NCBI GenBank assembly: GCA_029863305.1
Contig: JAOTVR010000034.1
Location: 1 to 33,625, forward strand
DNA: 33,625 bases
Source of the DNA: Gammaproteobacteria bacterium
GTDB lineage: Bacteria; Pseudomonadota; Gammaproteobacteria; Steroidobacterales; Woeseiaceae
Direction: 5' to 3'
In this document: piece by piece, positions 4,581-18,749 of the stretch
Position numbering within the stretch: the first letter of the stretch is position 1
Layout: every line of letters starts with the position of its first letter
Position numbers and translations under genes: made by a program
The notes under the pieces: generated by a model
Seen by the model: the letters and a program-made list of their open reading frames with translations, nothing else
Databases searched by the model: none
Told to the model about the DNA's origin: nothing

Positions 4581-5759
4581 ATGTACAAGATTCTCACACT
4601 CAATCACATTGCGGTCGAAGGGCTGCGTCATTTTCCTCGCGAACGTTACGAGGTCGCTTCGGAAATCGCACACCCCGATGCCATCATTCTTCGTTCATTC
4701 AACATGCACGATATGGAAATTCCCGATACCGTGCATGCCGTTGGCCGTGCCGGAGCGGGCGTCAATAACATACCCATCGATGCGCTGAGTGCGCGTGGCA
4801 TACCTGTATTCAATGCGCCCGGCGCGAATGCGAATGCCGTCAAAGAGTTGGTCGTGGCGGGCCTGTTGCTGGCGGCACGCAACCTCTGTGATGCGCGTGA
4901 GCACGTCAGGGGACTTAAGGAAACAGGCGATGCGCTTAACAAGGCCGTGGAAGCCGGCAAGAAGAAATTCGTCGGTTTCGAGCTGCCTGGCAAGACGCTT
5001 GGCGTCATCGGGCTCGGCGCCATCGGCGTCGAGGTGGCGAATGCGGCGCTTGCACTTGGCATGAAGGTGATCGGCTTCGATCCCAAGATTACCGTGCGGC
5101 GCGCCTGGCAACTGTCGGCTGGCGTCGAGCATGCGGAGAACATCGAGCAGCTGTTCCAGCACGCAGACGCCGTCACTCTGCACGTGCCGCTCGTCGAGGA
5201 GACGAAGAATCTCGTGAATCGCGATCGGCTGGCATTAATGCCGCCGGGTGGTGTCATTATCAACTTCGCCCGTGGCGGTATTGTCGACGACAATGCGGTG
5301 CTCGCGGCGCTCGACAGCGGCAAATTGCACGCCTATGTCACCGACTTCCCGACGACCGAGGCAATCGCTCACCCGAAGGTTGTGGCGTTACCGCATCTAG
5401 GCGCGTCCACGGCCGAGGCTGAAGAAAACTGCGCAATCATGGTTGCCGAGAACATCAAGGACTTCCTCGAAAACGGTAACATTCGCTATTCGGTAAATTT
5501 TCCCACGGCTCGACTGCCACGACTGGACGCTTGGCGCATTACGATAGCCAATGCCAATGTGCCGAACATGGTGGGTCAGATTTCCACCGATCTTGCGAAT
5601 GCAGGGCTCAATATAGAAGATCTGCTGAACAAATCGGTTGGCGATCTCGCTTATACGATTGTGGATGTCAATGGTCCGGTCTCTGACGAGACGATGGCGG
5701 AACTGCGTGCGATTGAGGGCGTCCTGACGTTGCGAAATCTCGGCAAGCCTGTAACCTGA
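4581..5759 (+). CDS. serA: D-3-phosphoglycerate dehydrogenase, short ACT-containing type
   Basis: It catalyses the first step of serine synthesis, oxidising 3-phosphoglycerate with NAD+. At 392 residues it is the short form: a substrate domain, a Rossmann fold with GLGAIG (144-149), and a C-terminal ACT domain from about 318, without the intervening domain of the longest versions. The 2-hydroxyacid dehydrogenase catalytic set is present as Arg231 (NFARGG), Glu260 (FPTTE) and His272 (PHLGAST). The stop of serC lies 4 bases upstream and pheA starts 7 bases downstream, which places two consecutive serine-pathway enzymes ahead of the aromatic pathway. The ACT domain suggests feedback control by an amino acid, presumably serine. 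Enzymes of this family can also reduce 2-oxoglutarate to D-2-hydroxyglutarate. Confidence 0.95.
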   Translation: MYKILTLNHIAVEGLRHFPRERYEVASEIAHPDAIILRSFNMHDMEIPDTVHAVGRAGAGVNNIPIDALSARGIPVFNAPGANANAVKELVVAGLLLAARNLCDAREHVRGLKETGDALNKAVEAGKKKFVGFELPGKTLGVIGLGAIGVEVANAALALGMKVIGFDPKITVRRAWQLSAGVEHAENIEQLFQHADAVTLHVPLVEETKNLVNRDRLALMPPGGVIINFARGGIVDDNAVLAALDSGKLHAYVTDFPTTEAIAHPKVVALPHLGASTAEAEENCAIMVAENIKDFLENGNIRYSVNFPTARLPRLDAWRITIANANVPNMVGQISTDLANAGLNIEDLLNKSVGDLAYTIVDVNGPVSDETMAELRAIEGVLTLRNLGKPVT

Positions 5760-5766
5760 CGAAATT

Positions 5767-6882
5767 ATGGCGTCGCGCTCCAAGAATGGCCGAGGTTCAA
5801 CCGACCTCACAGAGATTCGCCAGCGAATCAATGAAATAGATGAGCAGATCCAGGCTCTGATCAACGAGCGTGCGCGATTTGCCCAGGAAGTCGGGGTCGC
5901 GAAAGGTGAGCTTGCCGCCGCCGTCGACTACTACCGGCCCGAACGTGAGGCCGAGATACTGCGCAGCGTCGTCGAACGCAACAAGGGGCCGCTGCGCAAT
6001 GAAGAAATGCTGCGTCTGTTTCGCGAAATCATGTCGGCCTGTCTCGCGCAGCAGGAGCCATTGAAGGTCGGCTTTCTCGGTCCTGAAGGCACCTTCACGC
6101 AAACAGCTGTCTTCAAGCACTTTGGCCATTCGGTTCGGGCGCTGCCTTTCCACACAATCGACGAGGTATTCCAGGAAGTCGAGAGCGGCATCGCGGACTT
6201 CGGTGTTGTGCCTATCGAGAATTCGACCGAAGGATCCGTCAATAACACGCTCGACATGTTCCTGACCTCTCCATTGAAGATCACCGGCGAAATTGAACTG
6301 CGCATCGAACAGCACTTGCTCGGTCGCATGGCGGGCCTGGAGAGCATCGAGCGCATCTGCGCCCACGAACAGTCTTTGGCACAATGTCGTGGGTGGCTGC
6401 GCGAATATTTGCCGCATGTGGAACTCATCGGCATGTCGAGTAACGCTGCCGGGGCGCGCAGGGCGCGCGATGAGGCGGGTACAGCGGCTATCGGCCCTGA
6501 AGTTGCTGCTGATGTTTATGACCTCAGGATCATGGTTAACAGCATCGAGGACCGATCTGACAATTCAACCCGATTCCTTGTTGTGGGTCGCAAGCTGCTT
6601 CCAGCCAGCGGCAGTGACAAAACAACCTTGCTGGTGTCGACCAGTGACACCGGCGGTGGCGCGGGCGTGCTGCACCAGCTGCTCAAGCCTCTGGCTGAGC
6701 ACAACGTCGTGATGACTTTTATCGAGTCACGCCCTTCACGGCGCAAGAACTGGGACTACGTTTTCTTCATCGACATCGAAGGCCATGCCGACGAATCGCC
6801 AGTATCGGATGCGTTAGCAATTCTCGAGAAACAGAGTTCATTGTTCCGCGTATTGGGTGCTTACCCGAAAGCAGTGGGCTAA
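5767..6882 (+). CDS. pheA: Bifunctional chorismate mutase / prephenate dehydratase
   Basis: The 371-residue P-protein carries chorismate to phenylpyruvate in phenylalanine synthesis. An AroQ-type chorismate mutase helix bundle spans about 14-95 ([12 protein letters not shown], then [10 protein letters not shown]). Prephenate dehydratase follows from about 98 ([11 protein letters not shown]) and includes the NSTRF motif at 266-270. A C-terminal ACT domain holds ESRP at 320-323, the phenylalanine-binding signature, so feedback inhibition by phenylalanine is expected. The ATG lies 7 bases after the serA stop, and no attenuator or Phe-rich leader is visible, so control is probably allosteric. In pseudomonads a hisC and tyrA usually follow pheA; here the next gene is aroA directly. 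Confidence 0.97.
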
Positions 6883-15564: not shown

Positions 15565-16113
15565 CTATTCGGCCATGACGCTGAAATACCAAATGTAGAA
15601 CGCAATCCAGACGGTGATATGCAGTGCCTGTGCGGATCGCAAACTCAGTTTCCTGCGTGCGAGTTGGCCGAGCGCGCCGGCAACCACACTCACCAGCAGG
15701 AGACGACTCAACCGGGCCGGGATACTGATCAGCAGGAATGCGCCGAGTCCGTAACCGATATTTGCCGCTTCAACGGCGTAGATCTTGTAAGGCGTGCCAC
15801 CCAACGGCCCGAGAAACAGCGCGACGAGACCCTCTTCTTGAAGCTGCGACTGTACGCTTGCGATCATCGTGCCGTCGATCGCGGGTAGAGCTACGAAGAT
15901 GGCCCTCAGGGAATCAGGATCTGTTCGTCCCAGAAACCAGAGCGCGCAGCCACCCAGTAACGCGCCGCAAAGTACCCACAGGCAAGCGATGAAAGCACGC
16001 TTGTACCCTTGAATTGCGAGCCAGCTAATGAAGACATCCGGAACAATGAAAAAGACCGTAGCTTCAGCAAGACCCCAGAACCAGGCAAGTGCATTACTGC
16101 GACTGATTTTCAT
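15565..16113 (-). CDS. VTT/DedA-like (YqaA-type) membrane protein
   Basis: The 182-residue protein has about four or five hydrophobic segments. Features resemble VTT-domain (DedA/YqaA) proteins, some of which move lipids across the bilayer. An N-terminal amphipathic helix carries acidic Glu17 and Asp26, GALLGG lies near a GR turn at 62-63, and GPLGGTPYK (102-110) is followed by SIPARLSRLL with Arg134 and Arg137. It is the last gene of the leftward operon; its ATG lies 18-20 bases inside the end of the preceding CDP-alcohol phosphatidyltransferase gene, so translation is coupled. Given that context, a role in lipid translocation or membrane homeostasis is inferred. The family match is made by eye and no substrate is known. 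Confidence 0.7.
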   Translation of the reverse strand: MKISRSNALAWFWGLAEATVFFIVPDVFISWLAIQGYKRAFIACLWVLCGALLGGCALWFLGRTDPDSLRAIFVALPAIDGTMIASVQSQLQEEGLVALFLGPLGGTPYKIYAVEAANIGYGLGAFLLISIPARLSRLLLVSVVAGALGQLARRKLSLRSAQALHITVWIAFYIWYFSVMAE

Positions 16114-16720
16114 CGCTTGCGGACAGCTCCTTGAGAGCTTTTGACGATCGGTTGAATACCGTTAGCGCCGATAGTACAGCGACAACCACGAGCGCTGCGT
16201 TGGCCCACCAGTGCAGGTCCAGCCCGAACCCCAGCAGCAGCGCGAGCAAGCCGAAAACGAATGCACGATCGCTCTTGCCCATGGGTCCGTCGTAACGACG
16301 ACTCGCGCCGACCTGCACGGCGACGACGCCGGCCATTTCGGTCAGGATAGACAGAATGACAACGCAAACCACGAGCGCGGGCGAAATACCGGAAACCAGG
16401 GCGAACGGTAGATACAGCGCAGCATCGGCCACGACGTCACTCATCTCATTCAGAATGCCGCCGAGTGCACTTTGCATGTCGTGCTCCCTGGCAAGCATGC
16501 CATCAATAGCATTGAGCGCCATGCGCAGGAACAGCCATACCGGGATCAGCAGCAAAGCCCATTTTGCGTCCGTATTGAACGCAAACGTTGCGCCAACGAC
16601 CAGCGACAGGACCAGAGCCAGCACGGTCACCTGATTCGCGGATACACCGGCTGCAGCCAGTGCCTTGCACACCGGTCGTAACAAATTTTGAAATGCTGGT
16701 TTGAGGTCGTAGATGGTCAC
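16094..16720 (-). CDS. ynbA: CDP-alcohol phosphatidyltransferase, YnbA type
   Basis: The 208-residue, roughly six-helix membrane enzyme has the CDP-alcohol phosphotransferase motif at 70-99: N-x2-D73-G-x2-A77-R78-x8-G87-x3-N-x3-D95-x3-D99. The canonical motif has Asp where this has Asn70 and Asn91, so two of four expected metal or catalytic Asp are altered. From memory, E. coli YnbA shows the same RMALNALDG/ILNE pattern, so this may define a subfamily. Such enzymes transfer a phosphatidyl group from CDP-diacylglycerol to an alcohol. It starts at GTG in a GTGA overlap with the acyltransferase stop, after a GGGGAG ribosome binding site. Its product lipid is unknown. Confidence 0.88.
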   Translation of the reverse strand: MTIYDLKPAFQNLLRPVCKALAAAGVSANQVTVLALVLSLVVGATFAFNTDAKWALLLIPVWLFLRMALNAIDGMLAREHDMQSALGGILNEMSDVVADAALYLPFALVSGISPALVVCVVILSILTEMAGVVAVQVGASRRYDGPMGKSDRAFVFGLLALLLGFGLDLHWWANAALVVVAVLSALTVFNRSSKALKELSASDENQSQ

Positions 16721-17439
16721 TGCGCGATCTCCCCAAGTTCAGCTACACGTGATTGCAGATCATGACAGATTTTGCGCACCGATTCGGATGACTCGTCCAG
16801 TTGTTCGTAGCTGACCGGCGCGCCGATGCGGAGGTGCAAACGATATGGACGTGGCCAGAGTTTTCCCTTGGGCCAGGCCTTGAGCCCACCGTCCAGGTAG
16901 CACGGTACGACCGGCAACCGCGTGGCGACGACCAGGCGTCCGATGCCAGAACGGAAACGCTGCATTTCGCCCGTGGTGGTGCGGGTTCCTTCCGGAAAAA
17001 TGATCAGGACGTTGCCCTCCGTGTTGAGCAAGTGCGAGCAGACGGTGAGGCTTTCAGCCCCGTTGACCTGACGATCGAATGGCAGTGCGTTGATCAGAAT
17101 TGCGGACACGGCGCTTCTGGGCAGGCTCGAGAAGAAATAGTCTGCGGCAGCGGCCGGAAACGTCCTGTGGATCTTGTTCAGCGGCATCGCGCAGAGCATG
17201 CACAGCGTATCGAGATGGCTGGTGTGATTACAAACAAGAATAAAGGACCCGCTTGCAGGCAGATGCTCTCGGCCGTCAATGCGCAGTCGGTGATAGAGGC
17301 GCATCCATCCTCGCAAGAGCAGAGCCGCCATTGACCGCAGCGCGTACATGAACATGTACGGTTGTCGCGGAAAATTACGCAGGTGCTCGGCCATCGTCTC
17401 GTCGATGTCCGGTGCCGGGTGATATTCCCATTCGGTCAT
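16717..17439 (-). CDS. PlsC-like 1-acyl-sn-glycerol-3-phosphate acyltransferase
   Basis: The 240-residue protein contains the acyltransferase motifs in order: NHTSHLD (71-77, with His72 and Asp77 as the catalytic HX4D pair), ALPFDRQ (118-124), FPEGTR (148-153) and VVPCY (177-181). This is the PlsC/LPLAT superfamily, which acylates lysophosphatidic acid or related lysolipids. The frame extends to 17505, but the ATG at 17439 is preceded by GAGG at 7 bases and does not overlap the upstream gene, so I use it. It lies 13 bases after the CdsA-like gene and overlaps ynbA by four bases (GTGA). It is unlikely to be the sole housekeeping PlsC because it is embedded in a specialised operon. A hydrophilic N-terminal 25 residues precede the first membrane-associated helix. 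Confidence 0.9.
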   Translation of the reverse strand: MTEWEYHPAPDIDETMAEHLRNFPRQPYMFMYALRSMAALLLRGWMRLYHRLRIDGREHLPASGSFILVCNHTSHLDTLCMLCAMPLNKIHRTFPAAAADYFFSSLPRSAVSAILINALPFDRQVNGAESLTVCSHLLNTEGNVLIIFPEGTRTTTGEMQRFRSGIGRLVVATRLPVVPCYLDGGLKAWPKGKLWPRPYRLHLRIGAPVSYEQLDESSESVRKICHDLQSRVAELGEIAQ

Positions 17440-17452
17440 GCTGTGGCCTCGA

Positions 17453-18400
17453 TCAACGAATGCCGTGAACCCAGCGCACGACATGAAAGAAAATTGGTAC
17501 AACAAAGATCATGCTGTCGACACGATCGAGAATGCCACCGTGGCCTTCGATGACCGCTCCCATGTCCTTGATGCCGATATCCCGTTTTATGTAGCTGATG
17601 ACGAGGTCGCCGAGCTGGCCGCCGACGCCGACAATGAGCCCGGTGAGGACGAGGTGCCAGGGCTCGAAGTGCGGAAACGAAAACCACAGCAGCCACGGAA
17701 TGATCAGAGAAACACAGATCGCCCCGATCGATCCTTCGATCGTCTTGTTAGGGCTTATGTTCTCCCGGAGCTTGCGCTTGCCAAATAGTTTTCCGCAGGT
17801 AAACGCAGCGATGTCGTTGATTTCGACAGCCAGTACGAGGTAGAGGATATACCCGTACGCATACTTCGTGTTCGCGAGAAACCCGAGATGACTGAACATC
17901 CAGCCAAAATAGATAAAGCCGACGACCGCGAGTGCCACCTGCTGCAACTGGCCTTTCGCGCGGTTACGCAGGATCGGTATTAACAGGATGGCGCCGGCCA
18001 CATACGCCGGAAGCGACATGAACAGGCCATACCAGCCCGGATAGCCAAGTCGCGGATCTGTCACGAACGAGGCAACTGCCAGGGCAATGATGCCGAGATA
18101 CACCAGTCCGGTCAGCCACCAGTCGTCATACAAACCGGTTGCACGTGCAAACTCCTTGAAGCCGAAGATAGCCAGCAAGGCCACGCCGACGATGACGGCG
18201 GTCCTGCCGAGGAATATGGTTCCCATGACCAGCGGAATCATGATCAGCCAGCCGCGGTAGGTTCTCCAGATCGAAGACACGTCCTTGCCGAATATCGTCA
18301 TTACGCCGAGCACCATGCCTGCGAACCCGAGAACGCCGCCCACGATGGCGAGATAGTTCAGGTAAATGTCGCTCTGCAGTGCCAGATCAATGGTCATCAT
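17453..18400 (-). CDS. ynbB: CdsA-like phosphatidate cytidylyltransferase, YnbB type
   Basis: The 315-residue polytopic membrane protein (about eight helices) carries the CdsA signature near the C-terminus: SYIKRD...KD...GHGGILDRVDS (269-296). The preceding family block is ND-IAAFTCGKLFGKRKL and ISPNKTIEG (215-223). It should make CDP-diacylglycerol from CTP and phosphatidic acid, the substrate for the YnbA-type enzyme downstream. Glu285 replaces the small residue usual before GHGG. It starts with two consecutive ATGs, one base after the stop of the small transporter gene. Its association with PlsC and CDP-alcohol transferase genes argues for a paralogue of the housekeeping cdsA, which in most proteobacteria sits with uppS and dxr. 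Confidence 0.92.
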   Translation of the reverse strand: MMTIDLALQSDIYLNYLAIVGGVLGFAGMVLGVMTIFGKDVSSIWRTYRGWLIMIPLVMGTIFLGRTAVIVGVALLAIFGFKEFARATGLYDDWWLTGLVYLGIIALAVASFVTDPRLGYPGWYGLFMSLPAYVAGAILLIPILRNRAKGQLQQVALAVVGFIYFGWMFSHLGFLANTKYAYGYILYLVLAVEINDIAAFTCGKLFGKRKLRENISPNKTIEGSIGAICVSLIIPWLLWFSFPHFEPWHLVLTGLIVGVGGQLGDLVISYIKRDIGIKDMGAVIEGHGGILDRVDSMIFVVPIFFHVVRWVHGIR

Positions 18401-18401
18401 C

Positions 18402-18749
18402 CTATTTCCCCATCAGGTACATGCCGACCACGAGCAGTCCCATTCCCGTGATGTTGATCGGCTTGATCGGTGTTCCGTATGCCATCAAGGCGAGCAGGGC
18501 GGCCCAGATAAACGTCGTCGCATAGATCGGATAGAGCACCGTGAGCGAGCCACCCTTCTTGAATGCCGCAACGAACAGGACCATGACGGCGATGTAGCAG
18601 ACCACACCACCGAGGAGTCGAGCGTTCAACAGATAACTGGCGATCGTGCCTCCGGCCAGTTCGGCTCCCGACTTGTACAAATACTGGCCAAGCGCACCCA
18701 ATAAGGCCGCGGCAAGAAAAAATACGATGGAGATTGCAGGTGTCGTCAT
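18402..18749 (-). CDS. Small four-helix EamA/SMR-type transporter
   Basis: The 115-residue protein is almost entirely four transmembrane helices with GALGQYLYKSGAE in helix 1, VLYPIYATTFIWAAL in helix 3 and a Gly-rich last helix. This matches the small multidrug resistance/EamA fold that also includes the ArnE/ArnF lipid-linked sugar flippase subunits. It is the first gene of the leftward lipid operon, one base ahead of the CdsA-like gene, so a lipid or lipid-head-group flippase is more likely than drug efflux. SMR proteins act as dimers and no partner gene is present, so a homodimer is expected. Upstream lie 155 bases to the divergent VOC gene. Confidence 0.8.
   Translation of the reverse strand: MTTPAISIVFFLAAALLGALGQYLYKSGAELAGGTIASYLLNARLLGGVVCYIAVMVLFVAAFKKGGSLTVLYPIYATTFIWAALLALMAYGTPIKPINITGMGLLVVGMYLMGK

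Follow-up and report, generated by a model that had tools for sequence, protein, structure and literature searches.

The ynbABCD genes of Escherichia coli encode a CDP-alcohol phosphotransferase homologue (YnbA) side by side with a paralogue of the cytidylyltransferase CdsA (YnbB), and the same pair, with the same YnbA active site, is present in a five-gene cassette that we describe here from a gammaproteobacterium of the Woeseiaceae (assembly GCA_029863305.1, termed G000 below). The window analysed is the whole stretch of 33,625 nucleotides at positions 1 to 33,625 of contig JAOTVR010000034.1. The two loci differ in their remaining genes, as the cassette encodes a PlsC-like acyltransferase together with SMR- and VTT-like membrane proteins, whereas E. 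coli has YnbC (hydrolase/methyltransferase) and YnbD (PAP2 and dual-specificity phosphatase). We show that the unit conserved across several phyla consists of the YnbA-like, CdsA/YnbB-like and PlsC genes, with VTT, SMR, YnbC and YnbD as alternative partners.

Published background was taken from six papers (PMC6362211, PMC6506517, PMC4634129, PMC10127716, PMC2435150 and PMC7413402). Overproduction of YnbB did not complement a cdsA knockout, a result reported as data not shown, and raised the glycolipid MPIase in E. coli (PMC6362211). YnbD failed to complement strains deficient in phosphatidylglycerol phosphate (PGP) phosphatase or undecaprenyl diphosphate (C55-PP) phosphatase (PMC7413402). Polyphosphate rose in one strain background with an insertion in ynbC, which may be polar, but not in another background with a deletion of the gene (PMC2435150). 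The CDP-alcohol phosphotransferases carry an eight-residue signature, D1xxD2G1xxAR..G2xxxD3xxxD4 (PMC4634129). Two Mg ions are bound by its four aspartates, the last of which, D4, presumably acts as the base. In the phosphatidylinositol phosphate (PIP) synthase MtPIPS, R155 and R195 bind inositol phosphate, and changing D4 from D to N nearly abolished activity (PMC4634129). Among the titles and abstracts listed from the open-licence literature, none reported on the function of ynbA or on that of a YnbA–CdsA–PlsC set with or without VTT and SMR, and as far as these searches show no product has been assigned, which is no proof of absence. For YnbD, a PTPMT1-like reading was considered and is unsupported, as the matches are protein-tyrosine/dual-specificity phosphatases and PTPMT1 is not named among the 60 of 73 matches listed.

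Organization of the cassette

In the order of transcription, the cassette consists of the following genes.

18402–18749, minus strand: SMR/ArnE-like small membrane protein, the operon's first gene (115 amino acids; weak ArnE similarity, family-level EamA matches)
17453–18400, minus strand: CdsA/YnbB-like cytidylyltransferase-family protein (315 amino acids; PF01148)
16717–17439, minus strand: PlsC-like lysophospholipid acyltransferase (240 amino acids from ATG; PF01553)
16094–16720, minus strand: YnbA-family CDP-alcohol phosphotransferase homologue (208 amino acids, GTG start; PF01066)
15565–16113, minus strand: VTT/DedA-like membrane protein, the operon's last gene (182 amino acids; family-level PF09335 matches)

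The first three genes are separated by gaps of 1 and 13 bases, after which neighbouring genes overlap by 4 bases (GTGA) and by 20 bases, as the original prediction had described. Because a congener (G012) keeps the same five genes in identical order at 66–82% protein identity, the five frames are real genes and not chance, and the linkage is not peculiar to this contig; had it been so, this would have counted against the prediction. Three of the window proteins score above the curated Pfam cut-offs (PF01148, 199.8 bits; PF01553, 86.4 bits; PF01066, 35.0 bits). A promoter consensus scan found no site (1.9 expected), and the 11 terminator-like sites (3.7 expected) all lie inside genes.

The conserved unit and its distribution

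A scan of a collection of 84,980 species returned at least 584 YnbA relatives, and the locus counts that follow refer to the best 80 of these. A CdsA-like gene was found near ynbA in 75 of the 80 loci and PlsC in 70, as compared with 19 for VTT, 11 for YnbC, eight for YnbD and five for SMR. On these counts the five-gene linkage was rejected as the conserved unit in favour of the three-gene unit given above; all five genes were seen together in three loci only, namely the window, G012 and L029. Where at least 4 kb was present on both sides of ynbA (49 loci), CdsA-like was found in 47, PlsC in 46 and both in 46. Over all 80 loci, the nearest CdsA-like gene lies on the strand of ynbA in 74 of 75 cases and the nearest PlsC in 69 of 70. 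The gene order varies, from SMR-CdsA-PlsC-YnbA-VTT in the window to YnbA-CdsA-PlsC, with or without VTT, in 49 of the 80 loci, which indicates that the unit has been held together through rearrangement.

Eight further loci were recovered by profile or tblastn searches, four from genomes of the class and four from plasmids, the latter among 30 plasmid records that match YnbA at E 1e-5. CdsA-like and PlsC genes lie within 4 kb of ynbA in seven of the eight, including all four plasmids, on three of which ynbA is divergent from the pair; the exception is L163. An E. coli IncK2/Z conjugative plasmid (L166, NZ_CP027341.1) has the order ynbA, cdsA-like, plsC, ynbC, and the gene immediately upstream of these is annotated as a DMT-family transporter. 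The 19 kb Burkholderia ambifaria plasmid NZ_CP066768.1 (L169) carries ynbA, ynbC and a ynbD-like gene on one strand and plsC with the cdsA-like gene on the other. On a Caballeronia plasmid (L168, NZ_CP071131.1), a glycosyltransferase family 2 gene at 5623–6597 adjoins ynbA on the opposite strand.

When the class was sampled evenly, a ynbA-like gene was present in five of 143 genomes, the window's own included. A tree of 86 YnbA sequences, for which the bootstrap had not settled, mixes phylum labels, requiring 12 label changes against a possible minimum of 7; Verrucomicrobiota alone needs four, two of which are forced by well-supported branches. This mixing and the plasmid matches make it likely that the YnbA cassette has spread laterally, although mis-binned contigs can mimic such spread.

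The active site of the YnbA-like protein

The window protein shares 87 of 201 residues (43%) with E. coli YnbA. Its site reads N70-xx-D73-G..AR..G-xxx-N91-xxx-D95, so that the eight-residue signature is incomplete, with asparagine at D1 (N70) and D3 (N91) and the other six residues retained. On the strength of this homology and the N..DG..AR..G..N..D site shared with E. coli, the protein can be assigned to the YnbA family, and because D1 and D3 are asparagine we regard it as a homologue of the superfamily and not as a canonical member. It nevertheless scores above the PF01066 cut-off and is predicted to have the fold of the CDP-alcohol phosphotransferases, namely that of PIP synthase, and it possesses the two acceptor-phosphate arginines of PIP synthases (R152 and R191, assigned by alignment to 5d91, with a chain spacing of 38, that of R153 and R191).

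The two asparagines are a property of the family, as both were found in 58 of 58 aligned YnbA-family sequences and in E. coli YnbA; the count was repeated over 85 ynbA loci using a stricter pattern. In contrast, 41 of 41 other PF01066 proteins from 13 genomes have aspartate at all four signature positions. The residues D2, G1, A, G2, the base D4 (D95), R152 and R191 are invariant in the 58 sequences, in which the mean column identity is 60%, and the signature arginine is replaced by lysine in seven of the 85 loci. The two weakest of these 41 PF01066 proteins, which are divergent (L178 in G001:C48 and L179 in G002:C353), have four aspartates but no signature G2 glycine, and are not YnbA. The YnbA-like protein also differs from bacterial PIP synthases (RsPIPS and MtPgsA1) and archaetidylinositol-phosphate synthase in missing the NCBIfam cut-offs for both, scoring 59.5 bits against 170 for the PIP synthase equivalog and 84.9 against 180 for the archaetidylinositol-phosphate synthase, as well as in its asparagines and in the inositol phosphate supply considered below.

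The CdsA-like and PlsC-like proteins and their housekeeping counterparts

The CdsA-like protein matches PF01148 (E 9.8e-59) and misses the CdsA equivalog cut-off (99 bits against 385). In alignment it is 32% identical with the housekeeping CdsA of the same genome, and the two have in common the C-terminal stretch K-D..GHGG.LDR.DS, which corresponds to the C-terminal signature of CDP-diacylglycerol synthases. The PlsC-like protein matches PF01553 (E 1.9e-24) and misses the cut-off of the 1-acylglycerol-3-phosphate acyltransferase model TIGR00530 (51.4 bits against 102.95). Its NHTSHLD and FPEGTR stretches, which represent the PlsC-type HX4D and FPEGTR motifs, are invariant in five of five sequences, the window's included. 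The ATG start is matched by methionine in five of five sequences, all of which had been trimmed at that position beforehand; an alternative TTG start would lengthen the gene to 17505.

The assembly of the window (G000) measures 4.25 Mb and is 90.5% complete. Its contig C126 encodes another member of PF01148, in a neighbourhood that we named by eye from the protein starts as an rpsB-tsf-pyrH-frr-uppS-cdsA-rseP-bamA-skp-lpxD cluster. Three further PF01066 proteins are present, one of them beside a uvrC-like frame and called pgsA by eye, as pgsA usually adjoins uvrC, and there are seven further PF01553 proteins. The cassette copies of cdsA and plsC are thus not the only ones in the genome; had they been, the prediction would have failed. 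With a housekeeping cdsA, a pgsA and further acyltransferases encoded at other sites, the cassette is accessory, as had been anticipated when it was proposed to be an extra, dedicated set.

The SMR- and VTT-like proteins and their occurrence within the genus

Neither the SMR-like nor the VTT-like protein of the cassette has a Pfam match at E 0.01. The SMR protein weakly resembles ArnE of the ArnE/ArnF-type SMR flippases, scoring 22.7 bits with model NF011625, far below the cut-off of 92, and a weak EamA match was found in six of seven members of its family. In an alignment of the VTT family (n=23), PF09335 is matched by eight members (best E 1.6e-6), the window protein not being among them, and E17, D26, K110, R134 and R137 are invariant; the likeness to the DedA/VTT translocases is therefore one of the family and not a direct match of the window protein. 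An AlphaFold2 model of the VTT-like protein (pLDDT 93) gave no usable Protein Data Bank match in a structure search. Some DedA proteins are flippases of undecaprenyl phosphate and others are putative flippases of phospholipids (PMC10127716), which makes a lipid-moving role for VTT reasonable. A second VTT-like paralogue lies at G000:C126:3089–3577 (E 6e-14 to the family profile) and has a counterpart in six of six ynbA-bearing congeners.

Taking a YnbA-like gene at E below 1e-80 as the threshold, six of 25 genomes of the genus bear ynbA; SMR is linked to it in three of the six, and four of the six have a linked VTT. The SMR profile matches five of these six and none of the 19 ynbA-less congeners, with a Fisher p of 1.1e-4 that overstates independence because the congeners are related. 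In G019 and G024, SMR lies on a different contig from ynbA and is 44–50% identical to the window protein: contig C81 of G024 (L145, 3658–6781) carries a YnbC homologue (PF12147 and hydrolase), an O-methyltransferase (PF00891) and then SMR, the ynbA operon being on another contig, and in G019 one contig begins with the O-methyltransferase and SMR, while YnbC lies at the end of a different contig. The YnbC domain PF12147 is correspondingly found in two of the 25 congeners, both ynbA-bearing (2/6 as against 0/19), and was not found in the incomplete G000 assembly. These data indicate that SMR, even when unlinked, and YnbC go with the ynbA system, whereas the S-adenosylmethionine-dependent methyltransferase upstream of SMR does not. 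The latter (G000:C1:7709–9067, CARME/Methyltransf_11 type) adjoins the cassette in other genomes and precedes SMR in four loci, and its association was rejected as it is present in 21 of the 25 congeners (5/6 with and 16/19 without ynbA). HAD-family phosphatase genes are convergent to the cassette end in two congeners (L018, 6746–7372; L021, 4693–5367), possibly by chance.

Discussion

We favour, with slightly better than even confidence, the explanation that this accessory, patchily distributed operon is a dedicated second lipid-synthesis line running parallel to the housekeeping pathway, and that it makes a probably anionic membrane lipid; the unusual YnbA-like active site is the reason for which this lipid may be one that has yet to be recognized. 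In the scheme that we infer, for the chemistry of each step as well as for the product and its movement by SMR and VTT, PlsC would supply the pathway with a diacyl lipid of its own, resembling phosphatidic acid, which the CdsA-like protein would activate with CTP. YnbA would then attach the lipid-phosphoryl moiety to an alcohol that bears a phosphate, using a metal site that lacks two of the usual carboxylates. Wherever YnbD and YnbC occur, the product might also lose a phosphate and be methylated. The SMR and VTT proteins may move the product across the inner membrane. The housekeeping PlsC–CdsA–PgsA–PGP phosphatase route has the same family order of chemistry, but the window enzymes are divergent paralogues, and in E. 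coli neither YnbB nor YnbD reportedly takes the place of its housekeeping counterpart. The stepwise chemistry of the original prediction, in which PlsC-made phosphatidic acid is activated and given an alcohol head group, is doubtful in its detail, given that two of the four aspartates are asparagine and that YnbB and YnbD reportedly did not complement.

Several observations weigh against the favoured explanation. Among the 49 loci with at least 4 kb on both sides, three are incomplete (one with neither partner, one with CdsA-like only, one with YnbC and YnbD only), and the ynbA-family gene of L163 (G070:C3) has no CdsA-like or PlsC match in approximately 3 kb on either side. SMR and VTT carry weak family labels and are missing from most ynbA loci, so that the core reaction does not depend on them. 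As for the genus comparison, nine of the 19 ynbA-less congeners are not high-quality assemblies, and G018 is a ynbA-bearing genome without an SMR match, its ynbA contig beginning inside plsC with the upstream gene out of view. The reported complementation failures of YnbB and YnbD fit enzymes that act on non-standard intermediates, but weak activity would look alike, and the raised MPIase indicates that YnbB can act on or near CDP-diacylglycerol.

The asparagine sites could also mean that YnbA is a dead enzyme. That YnbA is catalytically dead or regulatory, binding a CDP-lipid, with PlsC and the CdsA-like protein as the working enzymes, would account for the asparagines that occupy D1 and D3 in every member examined, and in MtPIPS even the single D4 exchange nearly abolished activity (PMC4634129). 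We consider this improbable, as D2, G1, A, G2, D4, R152 and R191 are invariant beyond expectation for a decaying site and ynbA is nearly always accompanied by both enzymes (46/49). Ordinary redundancy, in which the cassette would add to the supply of a standard phospholipid (phosphatidylglycerol or phosphatidylinositol type) from ordinary phosphatidic acid and CDP-diacylglycerol as a backup for times of stress or for a niche, is unlikely, though less so than a dead YnbA. All three enzyme families belong to the standard pathway, the CdsA and PlsC motifs are intact and the YnbA-like protein retains its acceptor-phosphate arginines, but two canonical metal ligands are altered in every YnbA member examined and the E. 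coli paralogues reportedly cannot replace the housekeeping enzymes. In addition, the myo-inositol-1-phosphate synthase domain PF07994 was found in none of ten genus genomes and not in the E. coli control, which disfavours cell-made inositol phosphate as the YnbA acceptor, softly so because the domain was also missed in the control Corynebacterium glutamicum, which has this synthase.

The least probable of the explanations weighed is a role for the cassette in MPIase-type glycolipids, in which GlcNAc-PP-diacylglycerol would be made by the CdsA/YnbB-like protein and moved by SMR and VTT. The effect of YnbB overproduction on MPIase speaks for this (PMC6362211), as does the glycosyltransferase beside ynbA on the Caballeronia plasmid, a single locus; PlsC and YnbA, however, would be left without a role.

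Beyond the dedicated second lipid line, we tentatively suggest, as a possibility held with distinctly less confidence, that the cassette represents a widespread shadow phospholipid pathway, in which second versions of PlsC and CdsA together with YnbA would mirror the phosphatidylglycerol route on an intermediate of their own, with a metal site two carboxylates short, and the unrecognized lipid would be finished and placed by SMR and VTT, and in other lineages by YnbC and YnbD, a version of the pathway being present in E. coli K-12. The SMR co-occurrence provides a concrete candidate for the translocator of the cassette's lipid. If the cassette makes its own lipid, the YnbA family would be a natural active-site variant of the CDP-alcohol transferases in which two ‘absolutely conserved’ residues are changed, so that the two-metal mechanism could be tested directly. 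E. coli K-12 and pseudomonads carry the module, as do plasmids and metagenome-assembled genomes of several phyla, and if it makes its own lipid, then many bacterial membranes would hold a component that is missing from current inventories.

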